DNA of 16,596 bases from Gammaproteobacteria bacterium (GTDB lineage: Bacteria; Pseudomonadota; Gammaproteobacteria; Granulosicoccales; Granulosicoccaceae). Under the pieces are notes generated by a model that saw only the letters and a program-made list of their open reading frames with translations, was not told the origin of the DNA and did not search any database. The position numbers and the translations under genes were made by a program. The stretch spans positions 1 to 16,596 of the forward strand of contig JAGRHW010000030.1 of the NCBI GenBank assembly GCA_020444765.1, read 5' to 3'. Of this stretch, positions 2,200-16,457 are shown piece by piece (positions within the stretch are counted from its first letter, which is position 1; each line of letters begins with the position of its first letter).

Positions 2200-2358
2200 G
2201 ATTTTCGTGGCTGGACTCTGTAGGATAAAAAATGACATTCGTTGATGAGTAGTTTATTGTTTAGAAATAAAACCAATATCCTCATTTCTTCTCTTTTGTC
2301 GGCAAACCCATTCTGCCGGCATGTCAATCAGTTCCATTTAATCAAGGGTAACTTCATC

Positions 2359-3363
2359 GTGAAGACAAACTACAAATTTTTGCGTGGTCCGCTGTTTTTT
2401 GCGGCAATCGCGCTTTCCGCCAGCGCCAACGCCGCCGATTGCGGCAAGGTCACCATCTCCGACATGAACTGGGCATCGGCCGAGTTCGCCGCCTATCTCG
2501 ACCAGTTCATCCTCAACAATGGCTACGACTGTGACGCCGAGCTGGTGCCGGGCGATACCGTGCCGACCACCACCTCCATGATCGAAAAAAACGAACCGGA
2601 TATCGCCCCCGAACTGTGGGTTAATTCGGCACGCGCGGCGATTGATCAGGCCGTAACCGACGGCAAACTCGCGATCACCGTAAATATTCTGAAGGACGGC
2701 GGCGAGGAAGGGTGGTGGGTGCCGCGCTACACCGCCGAAGCACACAATCTGAAAACCGTCGCCGACGTGCTCGCCCACCCGGAACTCTTCCCAGCCCCGG
2801 AAGACAGCAGCAAGGGCGCTTTTGTAACCTGCCCGTCGGGCTGGGGTTGCGAAATAAACAACGGCAACCTGTTCAGGGCTTTCGAGCTGGAAAAAGCCGG
2901 CTTTGTCAAAGTCGATCCGGGCTCCGCGGCCGGTCTTGACGGCTCCATCGCCAAAGCTTTCGAACGTGAGGAAAACTGGTTCGGCTATTACTGGGCGCCA
3001 ACGTCCATTCTCGGCAAATACGATATGGTCAAACTCGATTTCGACGCCGACTACGATCCTGACAACTGGAACAACTGCATCGTCAAGGAAGGCTGCGAAA
3101 ATCCGCAGAAAACCTCCTGGACCGTGTCCGACGTACGGACCGCGGTGACCCAGCAATTCATCGACCGCGTGCCTGCTGAAGTCGTCGATTACCTGAGCAA
3201 GCGCAGTTATCACAATCCCGTGCTTAACAACCTGCTGGCCTGGATGACCGACGAACAGGCGACCGGCGAGGACGGTGCCCTGTACTTTCTGAAGAATCAC
3301 GAAGACCTCTGGAGCCAATGGGTGACAGAAGCGGCGGCGGCGAAAATCAAGTCCTCACTCTGA
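2359..3363 (+). CDS. proX: Betaine/choline-type ABC transporter substrate-binding protein (OpuAC domain)
   Basis: This is the periplasmic binding protein of a quaternary-amine ABC importer, handing ligand to the permease encoded next door. The start is GTG 2359, preceded by AAGGG nine bases upstream; it gives a clear Sec signal peptide with predicted cleavage after SASANA (residue ~25). Upstream in-frame starts would put ~39 unlikely residues before this signal. The mature part fits the OpuAC family: many aromatics that could cage a trimethylammonium group (W38, W87, W119-W120, W207, YYW at 210-212). Four extra cysteines sit in YDCD, TCPSGWGC and NNCIVKEGC and may form disulfides. Length, 334 residues, is normal. 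The exact ligand (glycine betaine, choline, taurine betaine or another) cannot be read from the sequence. A terminator follows immediately. Confidence 0.92.
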   Translation: MKTNYKFLRGPLFFAAIALSASANAADCGKVTISDMNWASAEFAAYLDQFILNNGYDCDAELVPGDTVPTTTSMIEKNEPDIAPELWVNSARAAIDQAVTDGKLAITVNILKDGGEEGWWVPRYTAEAHNLKTVADVLAHPELFPAPEDSSKGAFVTCPSGWGCEINNGNLFRAFELEKAGFVKVDPGSAAGLDGSIAKAFEREENWFGYYWAPTSILGKYDMVKLDFDADYDPDNWNNCIVKEGCENPQKTSWTVSDVRTAVTQQFIDRVPAEVVDYLSKRSYHNPVLNNLLAWMTDEQATGEDGALYFLKNHEDLWSQWVTEAAAAKIKSSL

Positions 3364-3383
3364 GGTTTTATCCAGGGAGCACG

Positions 3384-3424
3384 AAAAGCTCGCTTCGGGA
3401 TCGTTCGGGGCGGGCTTTTTTTTT
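3384..3424 (+). terminator. Intercistronic rho-independent terminator between binding-protein and permease genes
   Basis: AAAAGCTCGC (3384-3393) pairs with GCGGGCTTTT (3410-3419) in a ten-pair stem with one G-U, followed by a run of nine T (3416-3424). It lies 20 bases after the stop of the binding-protein gene and 29 before the permease start. As the next two genes are clearly part of the same importer, partial read-through would give more binding protein than membrane components, a known pattern in ABC importer operons. Confidence 0.8.
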
Positions 3425-3452
3425 GACAACCAATCGACAGGGGTAGCAAGAC

Positions 3453-4340
3453 GTGGACTGGCTAAGCGAATTTCCGGCAATGTCGCGCGAATCACTACGT
3501 GCACTGAACAAGACTATCGACCTCAGTTACCGAGACTTTTCACGCGCTTACGGTGAATCGATCGAAAATTTCTTCGACCCACTGTTGCATTTTCTCGTTT
3601 GGCTGGAAAATTTATTGCTGAATACGCCCTGGCCCTTGATCATCCTGGCTATCGCGGCAGTCGCCTGGCTTGGCAGCCGTAGCGTAAAGATCGTTATCGG
3701 CGTAATCATCTCCCTGCTGCTGATCGGTTATTTCGGCATGTGGGAAAACACCATGCGCACGCTCAGCATCATCACGGTATGTACACTGGTTTCCATCGCG
3801 CTCGGTCTGCCGATCGGTATTCTGATGGCGCGTTCGGATCGTGTGCAGGCCATGATCACACCGGTGCTCGACATCATGCAGACCATGCCGAGTTTCGTTT
3901 ATCTTATCCCTGTGGTGATGCTGCTCGGTATCGGCAAGGTCCCCGGTGTGATCGCGGTGATCATTTATGCCATTCCACCGATGATTCGCCTGACCAACCT
4001 TGGCATACGCCATGTCGACAAAGCAGTGCTGGAGGCAGCCGATGCATTCGGTGCCACGCCCTGGCAAAAACTCAGGCAGGTTCAGTTGCCGCTGGCTCTG
4101 CCGTCCATCTTCGCCGGCATCAACCAGACCATCATGATGTCGCTGGCGATGGTGGTTATAGCGTCGATGATCGGCGTCAAGGGTCTCGGTCAGCCGGTTC
4201 TCAAGGCCATCACTAACCAATACTTTGCGATGGGATTATTCAATGGACTGGCAATCGTGGTATTGGCCATCATCTTTGATCGCGTCTCGCAGAATTACGG
4301 CAAACGCCTGCAGGCACACCGGGCAGGAGGTCCGCAATGA
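3453..4340 (+). CDS. proW: Betaine-type ABC transporter permease
   Basis: This inner-membrane subunit forms the translocation path of the importer. The start is GTG 3453 with AGGGG nine bases upstream. The 295-residue protein has a short cytoplasmic N-terminus, hydrophobic segments at about 60-72 and 78-95, then a BPD_transp_1 core from about residue 100 with several more helices. The EAA loop that docks on the ATPase is visible at 194-213 (EAADAFGATPWQKLRQVQLP). Length is shorter than E. coli ProW (~354) but common among betaine permeases with a short N-terminus. Its stop overlaps the ATPase start (ATGA at 4337-4340), indicating translational coupling. Confidence 0.92.
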   Translation: MDWLSEFPAMSRESLRALNKTIDLSYRDFSRAYGESIENFFDPLLHFLVWLENLLLNTPWPLIILAIAAVAWLGSRSVKIVIGVIISLLLIGYFGMWENTMRTLSIITVCTLVSIALGLPIGILMARSDRVQAMITPVLDIMQTMPSFVYLIPVVMLLGIGKVPGVIAVIIYAIPPMIRLTNLGIRHVDKAVLEAADAFGATPWQKLRQVQLPLALPSIFAGINQTIMMSLAMVVIASMIGVKGLGQPVLKAITNQYFAMGLFNGLAIVVLAIIFDRVSQNYGKRLQAHRAGGPQ

Positions 4341-5404
4341 GCGATGTGAAAATTTCCATCCAGAATCTTTACAAGATATTCGGCAAGAATCCCCGCACTG
4401 CAATGGAGCACGTCAATAACGGTGTCGGCAAACAGGAGCTGCTGAACAAATACGGGCATGTGCTGGGCTTGCAGAATATCAACCTGGACTTACATGAACG
4501 CTCGATCGAAGTGATCATGGGTCTGTCCGGTTCCGGCAAGTCGACGCTTATTCGCCATATCAACCGCCTGCTCGACCCCACCACCGGCAGCGTGGTCATC
4601 GATGGTGAGGATATACTGAAGATGAGCGCGGCCGGCTTGCGCGAGCTCCGGCAAAACAAAGTCTCGATGGTTTTTCAGAAATTCGCTCTGATGCCGCATC
4701 ACACGATTTTGCAAAATGTCGAATTCGGACTCGACCTGCGGGCCGACGTAGCCGCGAGTGAAAAACGCGAACGCGCCGAGTACTGGCTGCAGCGTGTCGG
4801 GCTGAAGGGCGTCGAGGCGCAATATCCGGGACATCTGTCCGGCGGCATGCAGCAACGTGTCGGCCTTGCCCGGGCGCTGGCGACCGACGCCGATATCCTG
4901 TTGATGGATGAAGCCTTCAGCGCGCTTGACCCGCTGATCCGTACCGATATGCAGGATATGCTGCTGGAACTGCAGGCCGAGTTGAACAAAACCATCATTT
5001 TCATCACCCATGATCTGGACGAGGCCTTGCGTATCGGCGACCGTATCGCAATCCTCAATGACGGCGCACTCGTCCAACAGGGTTCCGCCCAGCAGATTCT
5101 TCTGCATCCGCAGGATGATTACGTGCGGCGCTTCGTCGCCGATGTCAATCGGGTCAAGGTGTTGCGGGTCAATGCGATCATGACGCCTGTCACCGATCTC
5201 ACCGAAGAGGTGGACGATTCCAGGCCAATGACCGTCAAATCCGGGCAGCGTGTCGAACATTTGATGAACAAGGTGGTACTGACCAACCCGTCCTCTATCT
5301 GGGTGCTTGATAGCGATGGTCAGCGTACCGGCTATATTTCCCGGGCTGCGCTTGCCGAAACCATCGGCCGGGACGAGGATGCCAGCTGGAACAGCGCAGC
5401 CTGA
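4337..5404 (+). CDS. proV: Betaine-type ABC transporter ATP-binding protein
   Basis: The cytoplasmic ATPase powers the importer. The start ATG 4337 overlaps the permease stop and has GGAGG (4326-4330) in front. Motifs in order: Walker A GLSGSGKST (62-70), Q-loop Q114, signature LSGGMQQR (167-174), Walker B ILLMDE (187-192), switch His in FITHD (H225). The insertion between the first beta strand and Walker A, with HVNNGVGKQELL, is typical of the ProV/OpuAA group. The 355-residue chain is shorter than E. coli ProV (~400): after the nucleotide-binding domain only about 85 residues remain, resembling a single or degenerate CBS-like unit (MTPVTDL... IWVLDSDGQRTGYISR) where many relatives have two. 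Ionic-strength sensing through the CBS pair may therefore differ. Confidence 0.93.
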   Translation: MSDVKISIQNLYKIFGKNPRTAMEHVNNGVGKQELLNKYGHVLGLQNINLDLHERSIEVIMGLSGSGKSTLIRHINRLLDPTTGSVVIDGEDILKMSAAGLRELRQNKVSMVFQKFALMPHHTILQNVEFGLDLRADVAASEKRERAEYWLQRVGLKGVEAQYPGHLSGGMQQRVGLARALATDADILLMDEAFSALDPLIRTDMQDMLLELQAELNKTIIFITHDLDEALRIGDRIAILNDGALVQQGSAQQILLHPQDDYVRRFVADVNRVKVLRVNAIMTPVTDLTEEVDDSRPMTVKSGQRVEHLMNKVVLTNPSSIWVLDSDGQRTGYISRAALAETIGRDEDASWNSAA

Positions 5405-7791: not shown

Positions 7792-8143
7792 GTTTGCTCA
7801 CACTAATCCATACCTGTTTTATCTTACCGTCACGGGCTTGAAAAGCTGTATCCACAGCCAGCCTTATTATCCACCGACGTGTGGATATTACATTTACGCA
7901 AAGCAACCGAGATACGTATTGAACAAACCCGGAACTCCATGACACACTTGTATTTTAACCGGATTATTTAATTCCGGCCTGCTTGAACCGCCATGACACA
8001 CAAAATTCCGCAATCACTGAAAAGTAAATTTATCAGTGCCGAATTTATTTTGTGTTTTAATTGGCCAGATTGTACAGAACCATCCTCGTCAAAAAAACGG
8101 CATGGCGAGCGCACACTCAACACACACCTCCAGGGAGAAAACA
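7792..8143. other. 352-base intergenic region between divergent MATE and OmpA-like genes
   Basis: No gene is supported. The region holds the DnaA-box-like cluster at 7848-7888 and a perfect 11-base direct repeat CCATGACACAC (7937-7947 and 7991-8001, 54 bases apart). It also has an inverted repeat CACTGA/TCAGTG (8015-8020 and 8033-8038). The OmpA-like frame is open upstream to 8036, but the strong ribosome site before 8144 argues against using it. Promoters for both flanking genes should lie here; I could not find a convincing -35/-10 pair. Confidence 0.5.
7848..7888. promoter_or_regulatory. Cluster of three DnaA-box-like sites
   Basis: Against the consensus TTATCCACA, three sites match at eight of nine bases within 41 bases: GTATCCACA (7848-7856, plus), TTATCCACC (7867-7875, plus) and ATATCCACA (7880-7888, minus). 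The last two form an inverted repeat TATCCAC-6-GTGGATA. This could be a DnaA-binding regulatory cluster, or the operator of another protein. Confidence 0.4.
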
Positions 8144-8872
8144 ATGATCAAAAACATTATTGGTATCGCAGCTGCCGCCACACTCACTACCGGATGCGGC
8201 ATGATGACCAAAGGCGGCACACCGGTCTCGGGCCAGGTGGAAGGTAACAGTTCCTATCTGGTCGATGGCGCCGGCAATGTCGTCATTGCAACCGGCCGTG
8301 GCGAATGCGTAAAGAACGGCTCTTATAATAAAGAAAATATGTTGCTGGGTTGCGATCCGGATGCTGCCGCCAAAGCACAGGCCGAAGCCGACGCGGCTGC
8401 AAAAGCTGCTGCCGAGAAAGCCGCCGCTGAAAAGGCCGCTGCCGAGAAAGCCGCGGCTGATAAAGCGGCCGCCGATAAAGCAGCAGCCGCTGCTGCAGCG
8501 GCTGCCGCAGCCCAACCCGTTGTCATGAACCTGAGCGGCAAAGCACTTTTTGCAACAGGTTCATCCACACTGAGCGGCAATGGCGAAACAGCCATGCAGA
8601 AACTCGCTGGGCAACTGGGTGAATACAAGGAAATCAAATCACTGAAAATCATCGGTCACACCGACAGTCAGGGTTCAGACGCCGTCAACCAGGCGCTGTC
8701 CGTACAACGTGCCGAGTCGGTACGCGACTACCTGGTGCAGTCCGGTGTAGCCGGCAGCGCGCAAATCGATGTCATCGGCATGGGTTCAAGCCAGCCTGTC
8801 GCTTCGAACGACACCGCTCAAGGCCGCCAGGAAAATCGCCGTGTGGAAATCGAGGTTGTCGGCACCAAGTAA
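8144..8872 (+). CDS. OmpA-domain probable lipoprotein with TolA-like alanine-rich rod
   Basis: OmpA-like C-terminal domains bind the diaminopimelate of peptidoglycan and tether the outer membrane or membrane complexes to the wall. ATG 8144 is chosen for the ribosome site AGGGAG (8132-8137). Residues 1-17 form a signal peptide ending LTTGC18, a slightly atypical lipobox with Thr at -3, so lipidation is probable but not certain; +2 is Gly, compatible with the outer membrane. Residues 19-72 form a small Gly-rich region with two Cys (C55, C70). Residues 74-123 form an Ala/Lys/Glu rod built on AAAEK and AAADK pentads, like TolA domain II. Residues 127-242 are the OmpA domain: GHTDSQGS with D174, LSVQRAESVRDYL with R189, and GRQENRRVEI near the end. 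A strong terminator follows, so the gene is probably monocistronic. Confidence 0.9.
   Translation: MIKNIIGIAAAATLTTGCGMMTKGGTPVSGQVEGNSSYLVDGAGNVVIATGRGECVKNGSYNKENMLLGCDPDAAAKAQAEADAAAKAAAEKAAAEKAAAEKAAADKAAADKAAAAAAAAAAAQPVVMNLSGKALFATGSSTLSGNGETAMQKLAGQLGEYKEIKSLKIIGHTDSQGSDAVNQALSVQRAESVRDYLVQSGVAGSAQIDVIGMGSSQPVASNDTAQGRQENRRVEIEVVGTK
8393..8512 (+). repeat. 15-base-period repeat coding AAAEK/AAADK rod
   Basis: The segment encodes three AAAEK-like and two AAADK pentads followed by eleven or so alanines. The period is 15 bases, with synonymous variation between copies (gaaaagccgccgct, gaaaaggccgctgcc and similar). The peptide should form a long helix that sets the distance between the N-terminal anchor and the peptidoglycan-binding domain. 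Copy number could vary by slippage without frameshifting. Confidence 0.75.
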
Positions 8873-8892
8873 TCGCCCACACTACCGACCCG

Positions 8893-8921
8893 AAACGGGC
8901 CGCTTTCAGCGGCCCGTTTTT
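8893..8921 (+). terminator. Strong rho-independent terminator after the OmpA-like gene
   Basis: AAACGGGCCGCT (8893-8904) and AGCGGCCCGTTT (8908-8919) form a perfect twelve-pair stem with a three-base loop, followed by TTTTT (8917-8921). It lies about 20 bases after the stop and insulates the kinase operon downstream. Confidence 0.95.
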
Positions 8922-9170: not shown

Positions 9171-11009
9171 TTGGCCAGCACATCACAACCCCACTACCCT
9201 GATGACGCCCTCCTGCCGGGCGTTGATCTGAATGGCTATATCATCAAAAAAGTCCTGGGTCGGGGCGCCTTCGGCATTACGTATCTTGCCGAGGAAAGCC
9301 ATCTGGAGCGGCTGGTCGCCATCAAGGAATATCTGCCGGAGGTCGCCGCGGTACGTGACCGGGACAGCCAGGTACACGCCCGCTCCGGAGAACAGGGACG
9401 TTTGTTCCGCTACGGGCTGGAAAATTTTCTGGCCGAGGCGAAAACCCTGGTCAAGTTCAACAACCCCAATATCGTCCGCGTACTGACTTATTTCCCCCAT
9501 CACGGCACGGCTTATCTGGTGATGGAATACGAAGTCGGCATGGATTTGAACCACTTTCTGCAAAAAAATCCGCAACCACCCGAAGACGCCCTGATCCGGA
9601 TTTTTTCGCCGATCAACAAAGGTCTCGCCGCGGTTCACGCCAGTGGCTATATTCATCGCGACATCAAGGCCGACAATATTTATATCCGCGAAGATGAAAG
9701 TCCGGTGCTGCTGGATTTCGGCGCGGCGCGCAGCGTACTCAGCAACGATCTGAACCAGTTGACCCGCATTCTGACTATCGGCTACGCCCCCTACGAACAG
9801 GACAACCCGACCTGGGCCGAGCAAGGTCCCTGGACCGATATCTACGCTCTTGGAGCAACCTTGTATTATTGCGTAACCGGCAGACGTCCGGTCAGCGCGA
9901 CGGAGCGGGCCGGCGCGATTATCAGCAATCAAAAAGACCCGTTGTACTCGGCCCTCTCACTCAAACCGCCCGGCTACAGCCTGCATTTTCTAGCCGCTAT
10001 CGACAAGGCCCTGCGGTTCAGACCGGAAGAAAGGCCGCAATCGATCGGGGAATGGGACGCCATGCTGAACAATGCCTCAGCCGATGCGGCCACGATCATC
10101 TCTCTATCTGAAGGCGATAAAACCGAAGCGCCGGATATGACTGTCATTCGGCGCAACGACGGCAAACAAGCACCGACCGTCGCGACAGCACAGCCCTTGG
10201 TAACATCAGCCAGAAAATCCAGGGCCGGCACCGGCTTGGTACTGACCGGCCTGCTACTCGCAGGAACCGGCGCCGGTGCATTTCTGTTGTTAAATCTTCC
10301 CGGCAATCCGGACATCGCAGCGATTACGGAACAGGAACAGGAACAGGAACAGGAACAGGAACAGGCAGAGTCGGCACCGGTCACAACAACGACCGATGCC
10401 ACGGCGGATGATGGCAAAGCTAGTGTCGAAGATCAGATCGCAACCCGGCAGTCCGAGCCTCTGCGGGAAGCTCCCTTGACGACAACAGCGACGCATGAGT
10501 CGACAGAAAAAACCGACAAACCCGTCGCTATGATCGACACAGCGGAGCCCCCGCCCGTCCCTACACAGGAAAAAACCAACGGCGAACTCGAACAATCGAA
10601 AAGCCTGGTTTTGTCGACAATGGTGCTGGCAAAAACAGCCTGCTGGCATTATGCACGCGGTCAGAAAATCACCGAGCTTATCGACAAGATCAAAGCCCTG
10701 CCGGAAACCAGCGACCGGACAAAGTTCATCGTCGATCAAAACCGCAAATTAAACGAGGCGCAATCCGGCTTTGAAAGCAATTTTGCACAATATAACGAGT
10801 CTCTAGAAAAACTGCGCGGCTACGACAAGAATACCGTCGAGTCCGCCATACAGGCTTTTTTCCAACAACCACAGTACGAAAACGACCAGACCTACCGCAA
10901 ACTCGGCGACACCCTGCTCAAACACACACACGCTGAAACCAACAATCAGCAGACTCTGAAGAGCGATCTGATGACGATCAGTACCTCAGGCGTTTTTTCA
11001 GAGTCCTGA
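9171..11009 (+). CDS. Membrane-spanning Hanks-type serine/threonine protein kinase
   Basis: This is a predicted cytoplasmic Ser/Thr kinase with one transmembrane helix and a C-terminal extracytoplasmic tail. The start is TTG 9171 with AAGGGA about seven bases upstream; no ATG or GTG alternative lies before the kinase fold. Kinase elements: Gly-rich loop GRGAFGITYLA (30-40), VAIK K52, alpha-C E89, HRD with D164 and N169 (HRDIKADN), DFG 182-184, YAPYEQ (205-210), and D223. All catalytic residues are present, so activity is expected. It carries the EYLP insertion after VAIK that I associate with a large gammaproteobacterial kinase group. A helix at about 354-376 is followed by a (EQ)6 tract at 387-398, a low-complexity Thr/Pro/Glu linker, and an alpha-helical domain at about 475-612 of no family I recognise. 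There are no PASTA repeats and no PP2C phosphatase nearby. It is the first gene of a tight four-gene operon. Confidence 0.93.
   Translation: MASTSQPHYPDDALLPGVDLNGYIIKKVLGRGAFGITYLAEESHLERLVAIKEYLPEVAAVRDRDSQVHARSGEQGRLFRYGLENFLAEAKTLVKFNNPNIVRVLTYFPHHGTAYLVMEYEVGMDLNHFLQKNPQPPEDALIRIFSPINKGLAAVHASGYIHRDIKADNIYIREDESPVLLDFGAARSVLSNDLNQLTRILTIGYAPYEQDNPTWAEQGPWTDIYALGATLYYCVTGRRPVSATERAGAIISNQKDPLYSALSLKPPGYSLHFLAAIDKALRFRPEERPQSIGEWDAMLNNASADAATIISLSEGDKTEAPDMTVIRRNDGKQAPTVATAQPLVTSARKSRAGTGLVLTGLLLAGTGAGAFLLLNLPGNPDIAAITEQEQEQEQEQEQAESAPVTTTTDATADDGKASVEDQIATRQSEPLREAPLTTTATHESTEKTDKPVAMIDTAEPPPVPTQEKTNGELEQSKSLVLSTMVLAKTACWHYARGQKITELIDKIKALPETSDRTKFIVDQNRKLNEAQSGFESNFAQYNESLEKLRGYDKNTVESAIQAFFQQPQYENDQTYRKLGDTLLKHTHAETNNQQTLKSDLMTISTSGVFSES
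10329..10364 (+). repeat. Six perfect GAACAG hexanucleotide repeats inside the kinase gene
   Basis: Six identical in-frame copies encode (Glu-Gln)6 directly after the transmembrane helix of the kinase. Perfect identity of copies points to slippage. Changes would add or remove dipeptides without breaking the frame, altering the linker between membrane and sensor domain. Confidence 0.95.
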
Positions 11010-11025
11010 GCAAATGGAGATAGAC

Positions 11026-11679
11026 ATGTCAAACAAGACAAAATCATTTATTACAACTCTGGCTATTTTGGTGATCTTATCGGCTTGTGCCAAAGACATG
11101 AAGCAGTCCGACAAGCTGACCATACAGGGTTGCACAGTTGGCGGATTCGGCGCCGGCGCCCTCGCTTTTATCAAATACTCGGGACAAAAAGACGCCAAGG
11201 AAAAGATCGCGATTTCCAGCATGCTCGGTTGTATTGCCGGCACGGTGGTCGGTTATCACATCGGTAAAAGGACGGAACACTATACCAATGCTCAGCAAGC
11301 CGCCGATGAGGAAATCGCTTTTAACCGCAACAGCACCAAAGAACTGAAAAAATACAACCAGCAACTGGCGACAAACATCAGCGACTACGAACAGCAGATA
11401 TCCATGATCAGGGATTCAAAGGAATCTGCCGCCGACAAGAAAAAGAACCTGCAGGAAACCAAGTCGATTATTGCAAAACAGCGTAACAAGGCCCAAACCG
11501 CCCTGGCCGATGTCGAAGCGGAACTGCTCGCGGCACAGAACCAGTACGCACAATACAAGGACAGTACGCCGCCGGAAACATCCACCGACTGGAGACAGGA
11601 ACTGGCCGCCCTGCAACAGGAAAAGGAGATCCTCTCCAGCCATGTTTCGACACTCAACGCAATGGATGCCAGTATTTAG
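11026..11679 (+). CDS. Glycine-zipper, coiled-coil lipoprotein (kinase operon gene 2)
   Basis: I do not recognise a named family. ATG 11026 is preferred over ATG 11014 because GGAG (11017-11020) sits five bases before it; the gene starts 16 bases after the kinase stop. The 217-residue product has a signal peptide ending in the lipobox LSAC21, with Ala at +2, compatible with outer-membrane sorting. Next comes a Gly/Ala-rich hydrophobic section at about 36-80 (CTVGGFGAGALAFI and CIAGTVVGYHIGK) resembling the glycine-zipper part of small outer-membrane lipoproteins. From about residue 85 to 175 it is a highly charged helix likely to form a coiled coil, and 187-210 is a second short one. It may interact with the next gene's coiled coil or with the kinase tail; this is inferred from co-transcription. 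Confidence 0.82.
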   Translation: MSNKTKSFITTLAILVILSACAKDMKQSDKLTIQGCTVGGFGAGALAFIKYSGQKDAKEKIAISSMLGCIAGTVVGYHIGKRTEHYTNAQQAADEEIAFNRNSTKELKKYNQQLATNISDYEQQISMIRDSKESAADKKKNLQETKSIIAKQRNKAQTALADVEAELLAAQNQYAQYKDSTPPETSTDWRQELAALQQEKEILSSHVSTLNAMDASI

Positions 11680-11687
11680 GAACAGCC

Positions 11688-12212
11688 ATGAACCTTCATG
11701 ATCAGAAAAAAAACTGGCAGGCAGTGGCTGTCGCGCTGATGCTCGCACAACTTCAGGCCTGCTGCTCACCGGACGTCAAACCTGGCGAGGCAAATATCTT
11801 TCAGGCGGCCTGCGGCGTCTCGTCGGGACAATACCAGCAGGATCTCGACAAGAAACAGGCCGAAGCGGACCGCTCGCGGAGCGAATTACAAGCCGAGCAG
11901 GGCCGTTCCGACGATTTGCAGGACGACCTCGCAGTCGCGCGTTTCCGCCGCCAGCAGGCCGAGACCGAGCTGCTTGAGATGGAGCAACAGAACCACCTGC
12001 TCGAACAGGAAATCAGGCAGATGAGCGCGACAACCGAGCAGGATAAACAAACGCGGCAACAGAAGCTCGCCGAGCTGGAAAAACTCAACACTGAAATCGC
12101 CGTACTCAAGGCGAATCTGCGAAACGAACCGGACAATCCGCAATACCTGGACGAACTCGATGCGCTCAAAAAAGAAGTTGAAACCCTGCGCATGATCGTA
12201 CTGGAGCAATAA
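11688..12212 (+). CDS. Coiled-coil lipoprotein (kinase operon gene 3)
   Basis: This is an unrecognised 174-residue protein. ATG 11688 is eight bases after the previous stop, with AGGA overlapping that stop as ribosome site. The signal sequence ends in the lipobox LQAC25 followed by a second Cys. Residues 33-50 hold a short CGVSSGQYQQDL segment. From about 48 to 172 the sequence is one long Glu/Gln/Lys/Arg/Leu-rich helix with heptad-like Leu spacing, interrupted near 146-155 by a Pro/Asn turn (NEPDNPQ). It probably forms a rod or adaptor in the periplasm. Its stop TAA (12210-12212) lies within the apparent start region of the protease gene, so the two are translationally coupled. Confidence 0.8.
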   Translation: MNLHDQKKNWQAVAVALMLAQLQACCSPDVKPGEANIFQAACGVSSGQYQQDLDKKQAEADRSRSELQAEQGRSDDLQDDLAVARFRRQQAETELLEMEQQNHLLEQEIRQMSATTEQDKQTRQQKLAELEKLNTEIAVLKANLRNEPDNPQYLDELDALKKEVETLRMIVLEQ

Positions 12213-12214
12213 CG

Positions 12215-13438
12215 ATTCGTCTTCTGCTCGGCGCCGCAAGCCTTCTGGCCGTACTTGCGGGTGCCTTGCTGTTTTTCAGCGCAGCATCCGATCCTCAATC
12301 GCCGCAAAACCCGCCGGCGGTATCCGCCACGGAGGTGTCACCCGCTTCCGCGTCACAACCGCCACCACCTGCCAACCTAATCGCAGATCAACAGGCAGCT
12401 GGCGAAAACGCTGCAACCGAAGGGGCCGGCAACCCTGAAATCGCCGGCCTGATCAGCCGTCACCACTACAAGAGTCCGGATTATAAAACAGTCCTGAAGA
12501 AAACCATTTCCGCCGAGATTTTGAAACACTACCTGGCCGATCTCGACCCCTATTCACGCCTGATTTCCGCCGAGCAGGTCCGCTTTAACGAAAACCGCGC
12601 AAAATACCGGCGTATCGGGCCAGGCCTGGATTATTTGATCGACAGGGACAAAGTTCTCGGCGTGCCTGTTTTCGATGGACCACTGTATAAACAAGGTCTA
12701 AAGAACGCCATTCGGATCGAGCACATCAACGATCAGGTTATTGACTATGATGAGTTCGACAGTTACCGGTTTTTGGATGACTTCAGCGAAGGCGACAGGG
12801 TTATCATCAGTTACAGGCACAATGACACAGCAGCACTTGAGACGCTCAGCCTGCAGGCGGCCAGCTATCAATACGAACCCGCCCGCTTCTACCGGCTTGG
12901 CAAAACCGCGGTACTGGAAATACGGCGCTTCCGAACCGGTAAAAACCGGCTTATCCGCGACGCTCTGCAAAACGCCGCCGACGCCGAACGGCTGGTGCTG
13001 GATCTGCGCTTCAGTCCGGGTGGCGATATCTACGCCATGACCGACTGGTTGTCCTTGTTTTTACCGGAAGGCATGGAAGTCGCACGCCTGCGCAGGCAAA
13101 ACGACCTTGCGCCGCTGGTTTTGAAAACGCTGTCCGGCCGGGTCAACCTGCCGGTGCCGGTCGTGATTCTGGTCAGCAGATTCACCGCAAGCTCTGCGGA
13201 AATCTTCGCCCGCGTGCTGGCGGCCTCCCTGCCGTCGGCATTGACGATTGGCGAACACACCAGAGGCAAGTGTCTTGCACAAAATACCTTCCGGCTGAGC
13301 AACGGTGACTCGCTGTCGCTATCGACCTATGAAGTCGAGCTGGCCGGCGGCCTCTGCAACAATACAAGCCTGCAGCCGAATGTGGAGATCCCCGGTGTGG
13401 AGTACAGCAATCTCGCCGATCTGCTGGATAAATTCTGA
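12215..13438 (+). CDS. S41-family C-terminal-processing-like protease with membrane anchor (kinase operon gene 4)
   Basis: S41 proteases (CtpA/Prc) trim or degrade envelope proteins with a Ser-Lys dyad. Numbering below is from the first standard start, TTG 12266. Conserved features: LADLDPYSRLIS (90-101), a PDZ-like stretch RIGPGLDYLI to INDQVIDYDEF (116-164), DLRFSPGGD (246-254), the nucleophile region FTASSAEIF with S309, and HTRGK with K335. By alignment to Prc, S309 and K335 correspond to the catalytic pair. The frame has no ATG, GTG or TTG between the upstream stop at 12179 and 12266, yet codons 12215-12280 encode an ideal anchor (IRLLLGAASLLAVLAGALLF). GGAG at 12203-12206 is eight bases from ATT 12215, which I take as the likely start; ATA 12209, CTG 12224 or a sequencing error are alternatives. 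A Pro/Ala-rich linker follows the anchor. Confidence 0.85.
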   Translation: MRLLLGAASLLAVLAGALLFFSAASDPQSPQNPPAVSATEVSPASASQPPPPANLIADQQAAGENAATEGAGNPEIAGLISRHHYKSPDYKTVLKKTISAEILKHYLADLDPYSRLISAEQVRFNENRAKYRRIGPGLDYLIDRDKVLGVPVFDGPLYKQGLKNAIRIEHINDQVIDYDEFDSYRFLDDFSEGDRVIISYRHNDTAALETLSLQAASYQYEPARFYRLGKTAVLEIRRFRTGKNRLIRDALQNAADAERLVLDLRFSPGGDIYAMTDWLSLFLPEGMEVARLRRQNDLAPLVLKTLSGRVNLPVPVVILVSRFTASSAEIFARVLAASLPSALTIGEHTRGKCLAQNTFRLSNGDSLSLSTYEVELAGGLCNNTSLQPNVEIPGVEYSNLADLLDKF

Positions 13439-13456: not shown

Positions 13457-14650
13457 CTAGCTTCCTGAATCATGGCGTTTCGCAAGCCGGAAGGTCAGCA
13501 TGCTCAACAGACCACAGGCGGTCATCAGCAGGAACAGACGGACCTGGCCGTCGTTCTGCACAAACCCGATGATAAACGTCAGCATGGACGCCATACCGAT
13601 TTGCAGGGCGCCGGCGATACCGGAGGCGGCCCCGGACATCGACGGCCGCACGCTGAGCGCTCCTGAGGTTGCGCTGGGCAACACCAGACCGTTGGACAGG
13701 GTAATCAGCAGCATCGGCAGGCTCATCGCCAAAGGATGCATGACGCCATGAAAGAACCACAGCAGCGACAAACCCAGTGCTGAACAAACCAGTCCGGCGG
13801 ACATCAGGCGGTTGGTGCCGACGTGCACCGCGAAGCGGCCGGATATGAAATTACCCATCGCGTAACCGATCGCGTTGAGCGTGAAATATAAGCCCATTTG
13901 CGAGGGCGGCGTGTTCATCAAATGCGTGAAAATATAGGGCGCGCCGCCAAGAAATAAAAAAAACATGCCCGAGGCAAAGGCAATCGTCAAGGCATAGCCG
14001 GTAAAAGCCGGCTCCTTGATCAGGGTAAGCGCGCTGCTTCGCAGGCCGGGCCGAACCGATTCCGGCTCATGGGGCTTGCGCGTCTCGTGCTGGAAAAAAT
14101 AAACCAGTACGAGTATGACAAGCGCCAGTATCAAGGTCGTCCAGAAAATAAACCGCCAGGAGGCAAACTGCGTCAGAAAGCCTCCGATCACCGGCCCCAG
14201 CATCGGCGAGATCACCATCGCCATAGTGATGTAGCCAATCACACTGGCGGATTTTTCCCGATCAAAGACATCTCTGACGATCACTCGCGACAAGCTGATA
14301 CCCACCGAGCCGCCCAGTCCCTGCACGACACGCCCCAGTAACAGGGTTCCGGTATCGGAAGCCAGTGCGCAAATCATCGAGCCGACAATAAAGATCACGA
14401 AACCCGCCAGCATCACCGGTCTTCGTCCGTAAACGTCCGACAGCGAGCCGAGAAACAACTGGGAAACCGCCGTTGACAACAGGTACAAGGTCAGCACAAG
14501 TTGAGCGACACCATAGCTTGAACCAAGGTCCCGCATCAGCTCGGTGGTCGCGGGCAAGGTGATATTCATCCCCAGTGGTCCGACTCCGGCAACCAGAATC
14601 AACAACCAGACCGGCGGCAAGGCCTGTCGATAGGCTAGCCGTGCCTGCAT
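13457..14650 (-). CDS. Bcr/CflA-family MFS multidrug efflux transporter
   Basis: Inner-membrane drug:H+ antiporters of this group export chloramphenicol, bicyclomycin and other compounds. The 397-residue protein has about twelve hydrophobic segments. Diagnostic motifs are the N-terminal MNITLPATTELMRDLG, loop 2-3 motif A GSLSDVYGRRPVMLAG, GRVVQGLGGSVGISLSRVIVRD in helix 4-5 and MLGPVIGGFL (motif C-like, the antiporter signature) in helix 5. ATG is at the complement of 14648-14650, with a GGGGTGAG ribosome site before it. It converges on the protease gene (18-base gap) and diverges from the DUF4389 gene across 77 bases. The drug specificity is not deducible. Confidence 0.92.
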   Translation of the reverse strand: MQARLAYRQALPPVWLLILVAGVGPLGMNITLPATTELMRDLGSSYGVAQLVLTLYLLSTAVSQLFLGSLSDVYGRRPVMLAGFVIFIVGSMICALASDTGTLLLGRVVQGLGGSVGISLSRVIVRDVFDREKSASVIGYITMAMVISPMLGPVIGGFLTQFASWRFIFWTTLILALVILVLVYFFQHETRKPHEPESVRPGLRSSALTLIKEPAFTGYALTIAFASGMFFLFLGGAPYIFTHLMNTPPSQMGLYFTLNAIGYAMGNFISGRFAVHVGTNRLMSAGLVCSALGLSLLWFFHGVMHPLAMSLPMLLITLSNGLVLPSATSGALSVRPSMSGAASGIAGALQIGMASMLTFIIGFVQNDGQVRLFLLMTACGLLSMLTFRLAKRHDSGS

Positions 14651-15266: not shown

Positions 15267-15311
15267 AGGCGCGGATTATCCCGCCCCCTGTTGCCCGACA
15301 CGGAAGTGATC

Positions 15312-16457
15312 ATGACGCGTTTCTTCCTCAGCTTAATCCTGCTTTTCGGTCTGATCGCCTGTAGTGGCGGAAACACCGGAATGACCGCCAGCGACGCGGG
15401 CCTGATCGATACCTACACGACCGGCACCGATCAAGCCACCACGGACGAACTGTTGAACACCGGAACATCCGCCGGCAATCCGCATGATGATACGGCCCGT
15501 CAGTTACAGATTTGCGCCACCCGCCTGGGCCGTAAACCCGCTGAGCTGGACCGGGAAATACAAACACTCATTCGAAAGGAACGCTATATCATCAGCACCG
15601 ACGCCGCCGGCACGGATGGCATCAACATCACCTGGGATCACAGCAGCGCCGATGTGATCTGCACCAGCCCGCCCGCGGAGGCCGGCGGACTGAATCTTGT
15701 CCAGAAGATTAATACAGGCCAGATACTCTACGGCAGCAGCGGCAGCGAATACATCAGCGTATTAAACGGCGGCATCGTATTTGCCGGTGACGGCCGTGAT
15801 ATCGTCGCAACGCTGGATAAAGGCGTGTTCTATGGCGAAGATGGCAACGACCTGGTTGCTTCACCACTCGATCACGGCTTGTATAACGACTGGACTTTCG
15901 CGCCATTCGACTCCGCCGGTCTGCGTAACGGCCTGTTCGTCGGTGGCAAGGGCGATGACCATATCAGCCTGATGAGCGGTGGCGAATTTCACGGCTCAGA
16001 TGGTCAGGACAGTGTTTATCAACTGCGGGCCGGCACCTTCTATGGAGGCAAGGATCAGGACTCGATATCCGACCCTGTAGCCGGCGAGCCCGGCACCATG
16101 AGTGGCGGCCTTTTTTACGGCGAGGCCGGTAATGACTGGGTCGATAATCTTTCCGGCGGCAGCTTTAAAGGCGGCGCCGATGACGACCTCGTGCATAAAA
16201 TAAGCTCGGCAAGCTTTGAGGGCATGCAGGGCAAGGATACCGTCTACGCGCTCGGAACCGATGGCGTCTTTACCGGCGGCAGCGGCGCCGATACCGTGGA
16301 CAGCATGTCCGATGGCACTTACGATGGCGGTGAGGATATCGACAGGCTGGAGGTTTATGCCGAAGGCAGCGTCATCAATGTCGAATCCGTTCCAGCCTGT
16401 CTGCAGGACGTAACAAACCGTTCCAAATGCCTGGTACTCGCACACAACCCTGATTGA
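15312..16457 (+). CDS. Lipoprotein with 17-residue RTX-like repeats
   Basis: No exact family is recognised. ATG 15312 has GGAAG (15302-15306) five bases upstream and gives a signal peptide with lipobox LIAC17; Ser at +2 suggests the outer membrane. Residues 20-130 form a non-repetitive N-terminal domain with two cysteines (C68, C117). From about 136 to 352 the protein consists of repeats with consensus G-x-F-x-G-x-x-G-x-D-x-V-x-x-L-x-x. Their starts fall at residues 171, 207, 224, 241, 266, 283, 300, 318, 335 and 352, so most steps are exactly 17 with two insertions. Half of each unit looks like the RTX calcium nonapeptide GGxGxDxUx. A short tail carries two cysteines (C363, C373). Calcium binding and a beta-roll or beta-helix fold are inferred. 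381 residues in all. Confidence 0.88.
   Translation: MTRFFLSLILLFGLIACSGGNTGMTASDAGLIDTYTTGTDQATTDELLNTGTSAGNPHDDTARQLQICATRLGRKPAELDREIQTLIRKERYIISTDAAGTDGINITWDHSSADVICTSPPAEAGGLNLVQKINTGQILYGSSGSEYISVLNGGIVFAGDGRDIVATLDKGVFYGEDGNDLVASPLDHGLYNDWTFAPFDSAGLRNGLFVGGKGDDHISLMSGGEFHGSDGQDSVYQLRAGTFYGGKDQDSISDPVAGEPGTMSGGLFYGEAGNDWVDNLSGGSFKGGADDDLVHKISSASFEGMQGKDTVYALGTDGVFTGGSGADTVDSMSDGTYDGGEDIDRLEVYAEGSVINVESVPACLQDVTNRSKCLVLAHNPD
15717..16364 (+). repeat. Diverged 51-base-period coding repeat (17-residue units)
   Basis: About eleven units of the Gly/Asp-rich peptide repeat are encoded here. They are similar at protein level (G, F/Y, G, D, V/I positions) but diverged at base level, suggesting old duplications under structural selection instead of recent slippage. 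Insertions of about 19 and 8 residues interrupt the array after the third and sixth units. Confidence 0.75.

Follow-up and report, generated by a model that had tools for sequence, protein, structure and literature searches.

A Granulosicoccaceae operon of a transmembrane kinase, two lipoproteins and an S41 protease as a probable relative of the TagQRST-PpkA signalling family

In Pseudomonas aeruginosa, damage to the outer membrane is reported to be read through TagQRST-PpkA, for which an unknown signal was proposed (PMC11881912), and TagR is reported to activate the kinase PpkA, probably via the periplasmic domain of the latter (PMC6082577). TagQRST was stated to be restricted to Pseudomonas (PMC6082577), and tagQ to tagT correspond to PA0070 to PA0073 (PMC6657622). 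The present analysis concerns a stretch of 16,596 bases, hereafter the window, which is seemingly one entire contig (JAGRHW010000030.1, assembly GCA_020444765.1) of a Gammaproteobacteria bacterium of the family Granulosicoccaceae. Its positions 9171 to 13438 hold an operon of four genes encoding a transmembrane Ser/Thr kinase, two lipoproteins (LP1 and LP2) and an S41-family protease. Comparisons of sequence and gene order support well a relationship of this operon to the TagQRST-PpkA family, of which it appears to be a variant. The exact four-gene set is new in the literature searched: among the open-licence papers listed, none presents, in its title or the start of its abstract, a single system made up of a kinase, two lipoproteins of this kind and an S41 protease. 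An earlier note on this DNA, made from the sequence alone, had claimed that no system of this composition was described; this stands for the exact four genes and not for their parts, which appear to belong to a PpkA/TagQRST-type family.

The four open reading frames are co-directional and, as the earlier note had read them, lie on one strand with gaps of 16 bases (kinase/LP1), 8 bases (LP1/LP2) and 2 bases (LP2/S41). The features of the operon are the following:

9171..11009, + strand: transmembrane Ser/Thr kinase of 612 residues, TTG start at 9171 behind AAGGGA
9237..10037, + strand: kinase catalytic domain, residues 23-289 (Pfam, alignment)
10236..10292, + strand: single transmembrane span of the kinase, residues 356-374 (hydropathy 2.09; next non-overlapping window of residues 0.87)
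10329..10364, + strand: perfect (GAACAG)6 hexamer repeat coding for Glu-Gln, in the low-confidence linker of the kinase
10566..11003, + strand: domain X of the kinase, residues 466-611, all-helical and periplasmic by topology (predicted local distance difference test, pLDDT, mostly 76-92 over the block)
11026..11679, + strand: LP1, lipoprotein with a glycine-zipper segment and a coiled coil (lipobox, alignments)
11688..12212, + strand: LP2, coiled-coil lipoprotein with a conserved N-terminal motif, ATG start at 11688 (lipobox, alignments)
12215..13438, + strand: S41 protease of the C-terminal processing protease (CTP) type with an N-terminal hydrophobic helix (PF03572, 3.5e-22), probable ATT start

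Locus L001, in a Granulosicoccaceae draft genome (G001; loci and genomes are numbered with L and G, respectively), has kinase, LP1, LP2 and S41 in the same order as the window and between different flanking genes, so that the four-gene block is beyond chance; the neighbourhood check proposed in the earlier note thus finds it outside this one genome. Furthermore, a protein collection was queried with the kinase X, LP1 and S41, and co-location was deduced from contigs of identical size, a reasoning borne out by the S41 of the L001 contig, for which both searches give 153,470. Five contigs carry two or three operon products by this measure: the kinase-X matches (n=5) share their contig size with S41 matches in 4/5 cases (5,207,524; 23,808; 45,651; 13,508), and the LP1 matches do so in 3/4 cases besides the window (5,207,524; 23,808; 3,972). 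Genome contigs (84,980 species) were scanned by S41 patterns only, a scan blind to kinase operons whose S41 has other motifs; it gave 17 loci, with L001, L002 and L003 (31-38% identity, E <=1e-45) well ahead of the next, L004 (25%). At L003 (Motiliproteus, 9784-10780), about the first 66 kinase codons are joined directly to roughly the final two thirds of the S41, an apparent deletion remnant, or assembly join, of this operon. Judging from these collections, the operon is rare; that it is a private oddity is ruled out by L001 and the loci of the pattern scan. Two clostridial loci (L005 and L006), in which kinase and S41 lie 4-6 kb apart without a match to LP1, LP2 or X, were left out. A reading as phage or plasmid cargo was also rejected: a search of 72,556 plasmid records returned nothing for LP1, and the S41 has three weak plasmid-record matches (one, from Azospirillum, belonging to the wider module described below) and one weak phage-record match.

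The kinase matches the Hanks-type Ser/Thr kinase family PF00069 with 110.1 bits (cut-off 31.7), and the alignment bears out that its catalytic residues are intact, namely K52, D164, N169 and D182 (K, HRD and DFG motifs). The domain is of the PpkA type: with the whole kinase as query of a structure search, the closest solved structure is PpkA, and the matches span residues 12-312 only. Unlike PpkA of the P. aeruginosa type, it has no VWA domain according to Pfam, and no VWA model matches in the window. Comparison with PASTA kinases (PknB/Stk1) was negative as well (NF033483, 128 against 450 bits; no PASTA match). None of the five families reported by Pfam extends beyond residue 289, in agreement with the description of the extracytoplasmic domain as unrecognised; relatives of this domain do exist, in the form of FGE-type C-termini. 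The (GAACAG)6 repeat could cause in-frame length variation of the linker between strains.

Indeed, X (7 sequences) compared with FGE C-termini (7 sequences) gives an hhalign probability of 94, a score of 51.9 and an E-value of 1.2e-7. When a 436-residue protein encoded beside LP1-LP2 at L002 is added, the score is 50.3, against 20.2 for the best of 100 column-permuted controls, 18.3 for the reversed profile and at most 20.1 for profiles of the coiled-coil LP1 and LP2; X scores on this protein at 1.5e-6. The FGE-X proteins, for their part, are encoded directly upstream of homologous LP1-LP2-S41 genes. At L113, a zinc-ribbon/transmembrane protein directly upstream of LP1-LP2 reaches 51 bits with a merged model of X and FGE C-terminus; an X model built from the kinases alone gives it no better than 0.0096. 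The carriers of X-like domains beside LP1-LP2 are thus kinase, FGE, SH3-like and zinc-ribbon proteins, the last two labels being readings by eye. Furthermore, the C-termini of FGE proteins from S41 modules match the C-terminus of TagR-like proteins (seven rows from five genomes) with an E-value of 8e-7, the best of 60 permuted controls scoring 18.3.

The distribution of the wider module was followed with LP1 profiles; partial-model matches were dropped, and those checked were glycine-zipper OmpA lipoproteins. Full-length LP1 was found in 3/369 genomes of the class sample of G001 (G001, G287 and G137; 29/369 before filtering) and in 1/48 of its order (G001; 15/48 before filtering). LP1 was further found in 2/5 genomes of the order of G137, in 7/395 of the G416 phylum sample at E <=2.4e-28 (the module is likewise present in G680, where LP1 scores 1.3e-14), in 7/244 of the order sample of G003 at 1e-12 (not all full-length; five examined at length, G932 and G815 left out) and in 1/198 of the order sample of G002, namely G002 itself. 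L063 (G370), L064 and L065 yielded no LP2 or S41. Local profiles served to label the neighbourhoods, and as some of these profiles derive from the very loci in question, the E-values are partly by construction; the gene order is not. This order is recurrently VWA, ABC ATPase, FtsX permease, FGE, LP1, LP2 and S41 (L108-L112, L131), the permease of L112 being split in two frames. L062 has the same order with the VWA gene about 4 kb off, and in L004, L114 and L116 the module is cut by contig ends (LP2 of L114 is below threshold). L002 has VWA, ABC, permease, a 678-residue protein, the 436-residue X-like protein, LP1, LP2 and S41; its Saprospiraceae label may be due to binning, LP1 at 1e-12 being confined to this one genome within its order sample. 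SrfC-associated versions (L126, L127, L129, L130, L146, L147) comprise VWA, ABC, permease, FGE and LP1, the LP1 call of L130 resting on a separate search; LP2 passes in L126, L130, L146 and L147, with weak matches in L127 and L129. In many modules, the ABC-FtsX pair occupies the place that the kinase has in the present operon.

The LP1-LP2 pair was also seen in other company. At L113 (G566:C218), it stands beside the zinc-ribbon/transmembrane/X-like protein and a Tubulin_2 + GYF_2 protein, which may be another use of the pair. At L125 (G1022:C12), its neighbours are a PP2C gene and the gene of a kinase that is 45% identical to the kinase domain of the window and shows SEL1-like repeats by eye.

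A search with an FGE alignment matched 11/390 genomes of the order sample of G003 (L126, L127, L129 and L143-L147 were seen in longer stretches, L140-L142 as short loci). Among these, L143-L145, in genomes of about 6 Mb, belong to the type VI secretion system (T6SS) type and run (kinase-VWA), ABC, permease, FGE and LP1-like, an order that we assign, from gene order and PMC6657622, to ppkA-tagT-tagS-tagR-tagQ. In L144 and L145 a PP2C gene lies by eye beside the kinase, and L144 also has a TssM-like gene beyond. The module models match in L144 the kinase protein (VWA, 3e-147), the permease (5e-92) and the FGE protein (6e-84), and TagT, TagS, TagR and the VWA domain of PpkA appear to belong to the module family; the kinase is fused to VWA in the T6SS-type loci and to X here. 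VipB has no match in 12/18 genomes examined, G001 included (drafts may be incomplete), and is present in G003, G728, G1022, G839, G1042 and G1002. Related VWA/ABC/FtsX/FGE/LP modules occur in other groups, including the Azospirillum record, and their presence outside Pseudomonas, together with these 12/18 genomes, suggests that the sensor is broader than the T6SS. L001 has no permease, FGE or VWA match; G001, the one searched genome with the full operon and a draft, which limits absences, has no match to PF03781 (FGE-sulfatase). It contains five matches to FHA and two to PP2C, one of each lying <1 kb apart, so that this genome encodes candidate targets and a candidate off switch elsewhere.

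Compared with TagQRST-PpkA-Fha-PppA of P. aeruginosa, the operon shares a PpkA-type kinase with a periplasmic domain and a glycine-zipper lipoprotein. Likewise, the TagR-like proteins are FGE proteins with a C-terminus matching the FGE C-termini that match X, and the VWA model of the module picks up the VWA part of the PpkA-like kinase, as given above. It differs in the fusion of the kinase to X instead of VWA, in the lack of TagR, TagS and a module-type ABC gene in the window, in the addition of LP2 and S41 and in the lack of a VipB match in the L001 genome; no PppA or Fha was seen near the operon. In RtkS-PpkA of Serratia and TssW-PpkA of Acidovorax, a periplasmic or outer-membrane partner is also reported to act on PpkA (PMC6082577, PMC12607579), but both lie in T6SS clusters, and the partners are likened here by description, not by sequence. 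CtpA-LbcA and Prc-NlpI resemble the operon in joining an S41 CTP protease, with a matching fold, to lipoprotein partners, CtpA being reported to require the lipoprotein LbcA (PMC11021448; PMC6050968); they differ in that LbcA and NlpI carry tetratricopeptide repeats (TPR), for which LP1 and LP2 have no match, and in that no kinase is reported for them in the sources cited. Finally, the SrfB/SrfC-associated VWA/ABC/FtsX/FGE/LP1/LP2 operons share the homologous LP1-LP2 pair and an FGE protein, and have srfC (plus srfB in pENTE01) in place of S41 in the six stretches seen; pENTE01 of Enterobacter sp. 638 carries an operon of this type, and others are described from host-associated deltaproteobacteria, in neighbourhoods that include ppkA (PMC3608642).

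The S41 protease matches PF03572 with 79.2 bits (cut-off 24) and stays below the curated cut-off of TIGR00225 (76.7 against 218.6 bits). Its frame is without ATG, GTG or TTG before 12266, and the ATT at 12215 is the likely start because GGAG lies 8 nucleotides upstream and because of the alignment with the starts of homologues; the version in the protein collection starts later (367 residues). The Ser-Lys dyad of the earlier note was recovered: S326 and K352 are invariant and Q356 is nearly so in an alignment of 23 rows (the window and 22 others), and the three residue types are kept in 13/13 S41s of a separate alignment (L002, L003, L004, L062, L108-L112, L114, L116, L131 and the window). In these 13 proteins, cysteines 353 and 381 occur together (8/13) or are missing together (5/13), and a C353-C381 disulfide beside the catalytic lysine is likely. 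Pfam recognises no PDZ domain; alignment of the structural model with CtpA, CtpB and D1P covers most of the model (TM-scores about 0.5-0.6), with CtpA-LbcA ranked first by Foldseek (8.4e-24). The matched CTPs bear a PDZ domain, and the S41 may be PDZ-like as the earlier note described it. In a tree of 64 rows, where ordinary CTPs were 24 of 97 listed plus 5 loci of the S41 pattern scan, 28 ordinary rows group together (92/88, below the tool's star) and the ordinary L010 is unplaced; the other side holds 24 rows of the S41 family of the window, L002 and 10 FGE-module rows, which are not one clade. A single origin of the module S41s is compatible with this tree, not proven by it.

The two lipoproteins are borne out by their lipoboxes (LSAC and LQAC), and both contain coiled coils as previously described. 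LP1 starts at ATG 11026 behind GGAG and has 217 residues, not the 221 of the open reading frame from 11014. All Pfam matches in LP1 and LP2 are below their cut-offs, as is the match of LP1 to NF053611 (9.7e-6); the protein collection assigns to LP1 PF13441, which we take to be a glycine-zipper family. No TPR was found in either by Pfam at E up to 1, and the parallel with the adaptors NlpI and LbcA stays an analogy. In Escherichia coli, lipoproteins without Asp at position +2 go to the outer membrane; both LP1 and LP2 lack this residue and are therefore probably sited there.

The envelope signalling module of the earlier note stands as a conserved module tying kinase, lipoproteins and S41 (L001, protein collection, neighbourhoods); its exact workings are what we infer here. 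The balance tips slightly towards a compact relative of TagQRST-PpkA that works independently of the T6SS. Envelope damage would act on X and through it on the kinase, and the S41 would tune or reset the signal. As regards complex formation, outer-membrane site, stimulus, signalling direction, substrates and the role of the protease, the scheme would be as follows. LP1 and LP2 would span the periplasm as a coiled-coil sensor or scaffold and, upon envelope disturbance, contact the helical X on the periplasmic side of the kinase, the receptor domain being built here into the kinase itself. This contact would dimerise the kinase and lead to phosphorylation of targets in the cytoplasm, which may be FHA-type proteins encoded elsewhere. 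The S41, anchored in the membrane, may act on the receptor complex or on envelope substrates, with LP1 and LP2 as adaptors, and set the gain or reset the signal, for instance by trimming the receptor. The inward direction is modelled on the reading of outer-membrane damage by TagQRST-PpkA and the probable action of TagR on the periplasmic part of its kinase, and the adaptor role on the help that LbcA gives to CtpA. A broader version, in which X would be a periplasmic docking domain that swaps carriers while LP1-LP2 stay constant, is more tentative; it would make X a general envelope-damage receptor far outside the T6SS, which in this operon would drive the kinase directly and be reset by a dedicated S41.

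Several observations weigh against the relationship and the scheme built on it. The X of the kinase compared directly with the C-terminus of T6SS TagR gives no match (E 0.42; the permuted controls score higher on average), and the merged X model misses the C-terminus of the TagR-like protein of L143, so that the link from X to TagR passes through one intermediate, the FGE of the S41 modules. LP1 matches TagQ at E 7e-7 over 76 columns, at the glycine-zipper end only, and a better match to LP1 comes from ordinary OmpA lipoproteins with a glycine zipper (8e-11), which leaves the identity of LP1 with TagQ unproven. By the local profiles, neither FtsX nor FGE nor VWA has a match in the window, and an ABC gene of the module type is lacking there too. 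S41 was not found in the fetched stretches of the six SrfC-associated and three T6SS-type versions, and at L061 and L125, each with a kinase and a PP2C gene nearby, LP1-LP2 stand without X or S41 matches; neither S41 nor X is thus needed everywhere.

The chief rival, unlikely but to be taken seriously, reverses the direction: a cytoplasmic cue would act through the kinase, and X and the lipoproteins would switch the S41 on or off and so control cell-wall hydrolases, as in Prc-NlpI or CtpA-LbcA. ABC-FtsX transporters are a class known for inside-out control of periplasmic enzymes, and it is such a pair that replaces the kinase in many modules; CtpA-LbcA also ranks first for the S41 model, and wall hydrolases are reported to be degraded by CtpA-LbcA (PMC6050968). 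However, versions without S41 exist, and the best-studied relative, TagQRST-PpkA, signals inward. It is less probable still that the genes are merely co-transcribed envelope genes without a common pathway, LP1-LP2-S41 acting on the cell wall and the kinase separately: LP1 and LP2 are without functional annotation and occur without X or S41 in L061 and L125, but X is repeatedly found in the neighbourhood of LP1-LP2, on various carriers and in distant genomes.

Regulation of a T6SS encoded elsewhere, as by PpkA, would fit the PpkA-type kinase domain and the VipB of G003, the Motiliproteus genome with the remnant; with VipB unmatched in G001, the draft with the full operon, and in 12/18 genomes overall, it is improbable. 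About equally hard to credit, or slightly more so, is the explanation that the match between X and the FGE C-termini reflects mere helical or coiled-coil composition. X is modelled as all-helical, the alignments are shallow (7 sequences each) and the comparison of X with T6SS TagR is negative, but permuted, reversed and real coiled-coil (LP1, LP2) profiles reach at most 20.2 against 50.3, and the matching domains hold the same position adjoining LP1.

The boundaries of the operon agree with the strong upstream terminator and the convergent downstream gene read earlier:

8892..8920, + strand: intrinsic terminator of the upstream OmpA-family gene, insulating the operon (fold -23.1 kcal/mol, z -5.3)
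13457..14650, - strand: convergent Bcr/CflA gene of the major facilitator superfamily (MFS), operon boundary (TIGR00710, 263 bits, above cut-off)

None of 200 shuffles folds as low as the hairpin at 8892-8920 (0/200), which a simple terminator pattern scan does not list, and the Bcr/CflA gene ends 18 bases from the end of the S41. No PP2C gene, in keeping with the earlier note, was found among the neighbouring genes scanned (Pfam, NCBIfam), nor any T6SS family among the scanned genes of the window. Elsewhere in the window, a betaine/choline-type ABC transporter (2242-5404, +) comprises an OpuAC binding protein, a permease and an ATPase, the latter being the sole ABC match of the module labelling. 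The OmpA-family lipoprotein (8036-8872, +) has in its middle a 15-base tandem repeat coding for Ala/Glu/Lys. A putative lipoprotein of 388 residues (15291-16457, +) has repeated short GG-rich/D-rich units, RTX-like by eye, and no Pfam or NCBIfam match.

As a natural fusion of a PpkA-type kinase with a TagR-type helical domain, beside two lipoproteins, the operon points to the parts that may touch each other in this family. The four-gene version would be small enough for rebuilding TagQRST-like sensing, and the S41 partner of many modules would add proteolysis to the sensing scheme. The operon resembles a stripped-down outer-membrane-damage alarm, without the weapon that is normally fired.

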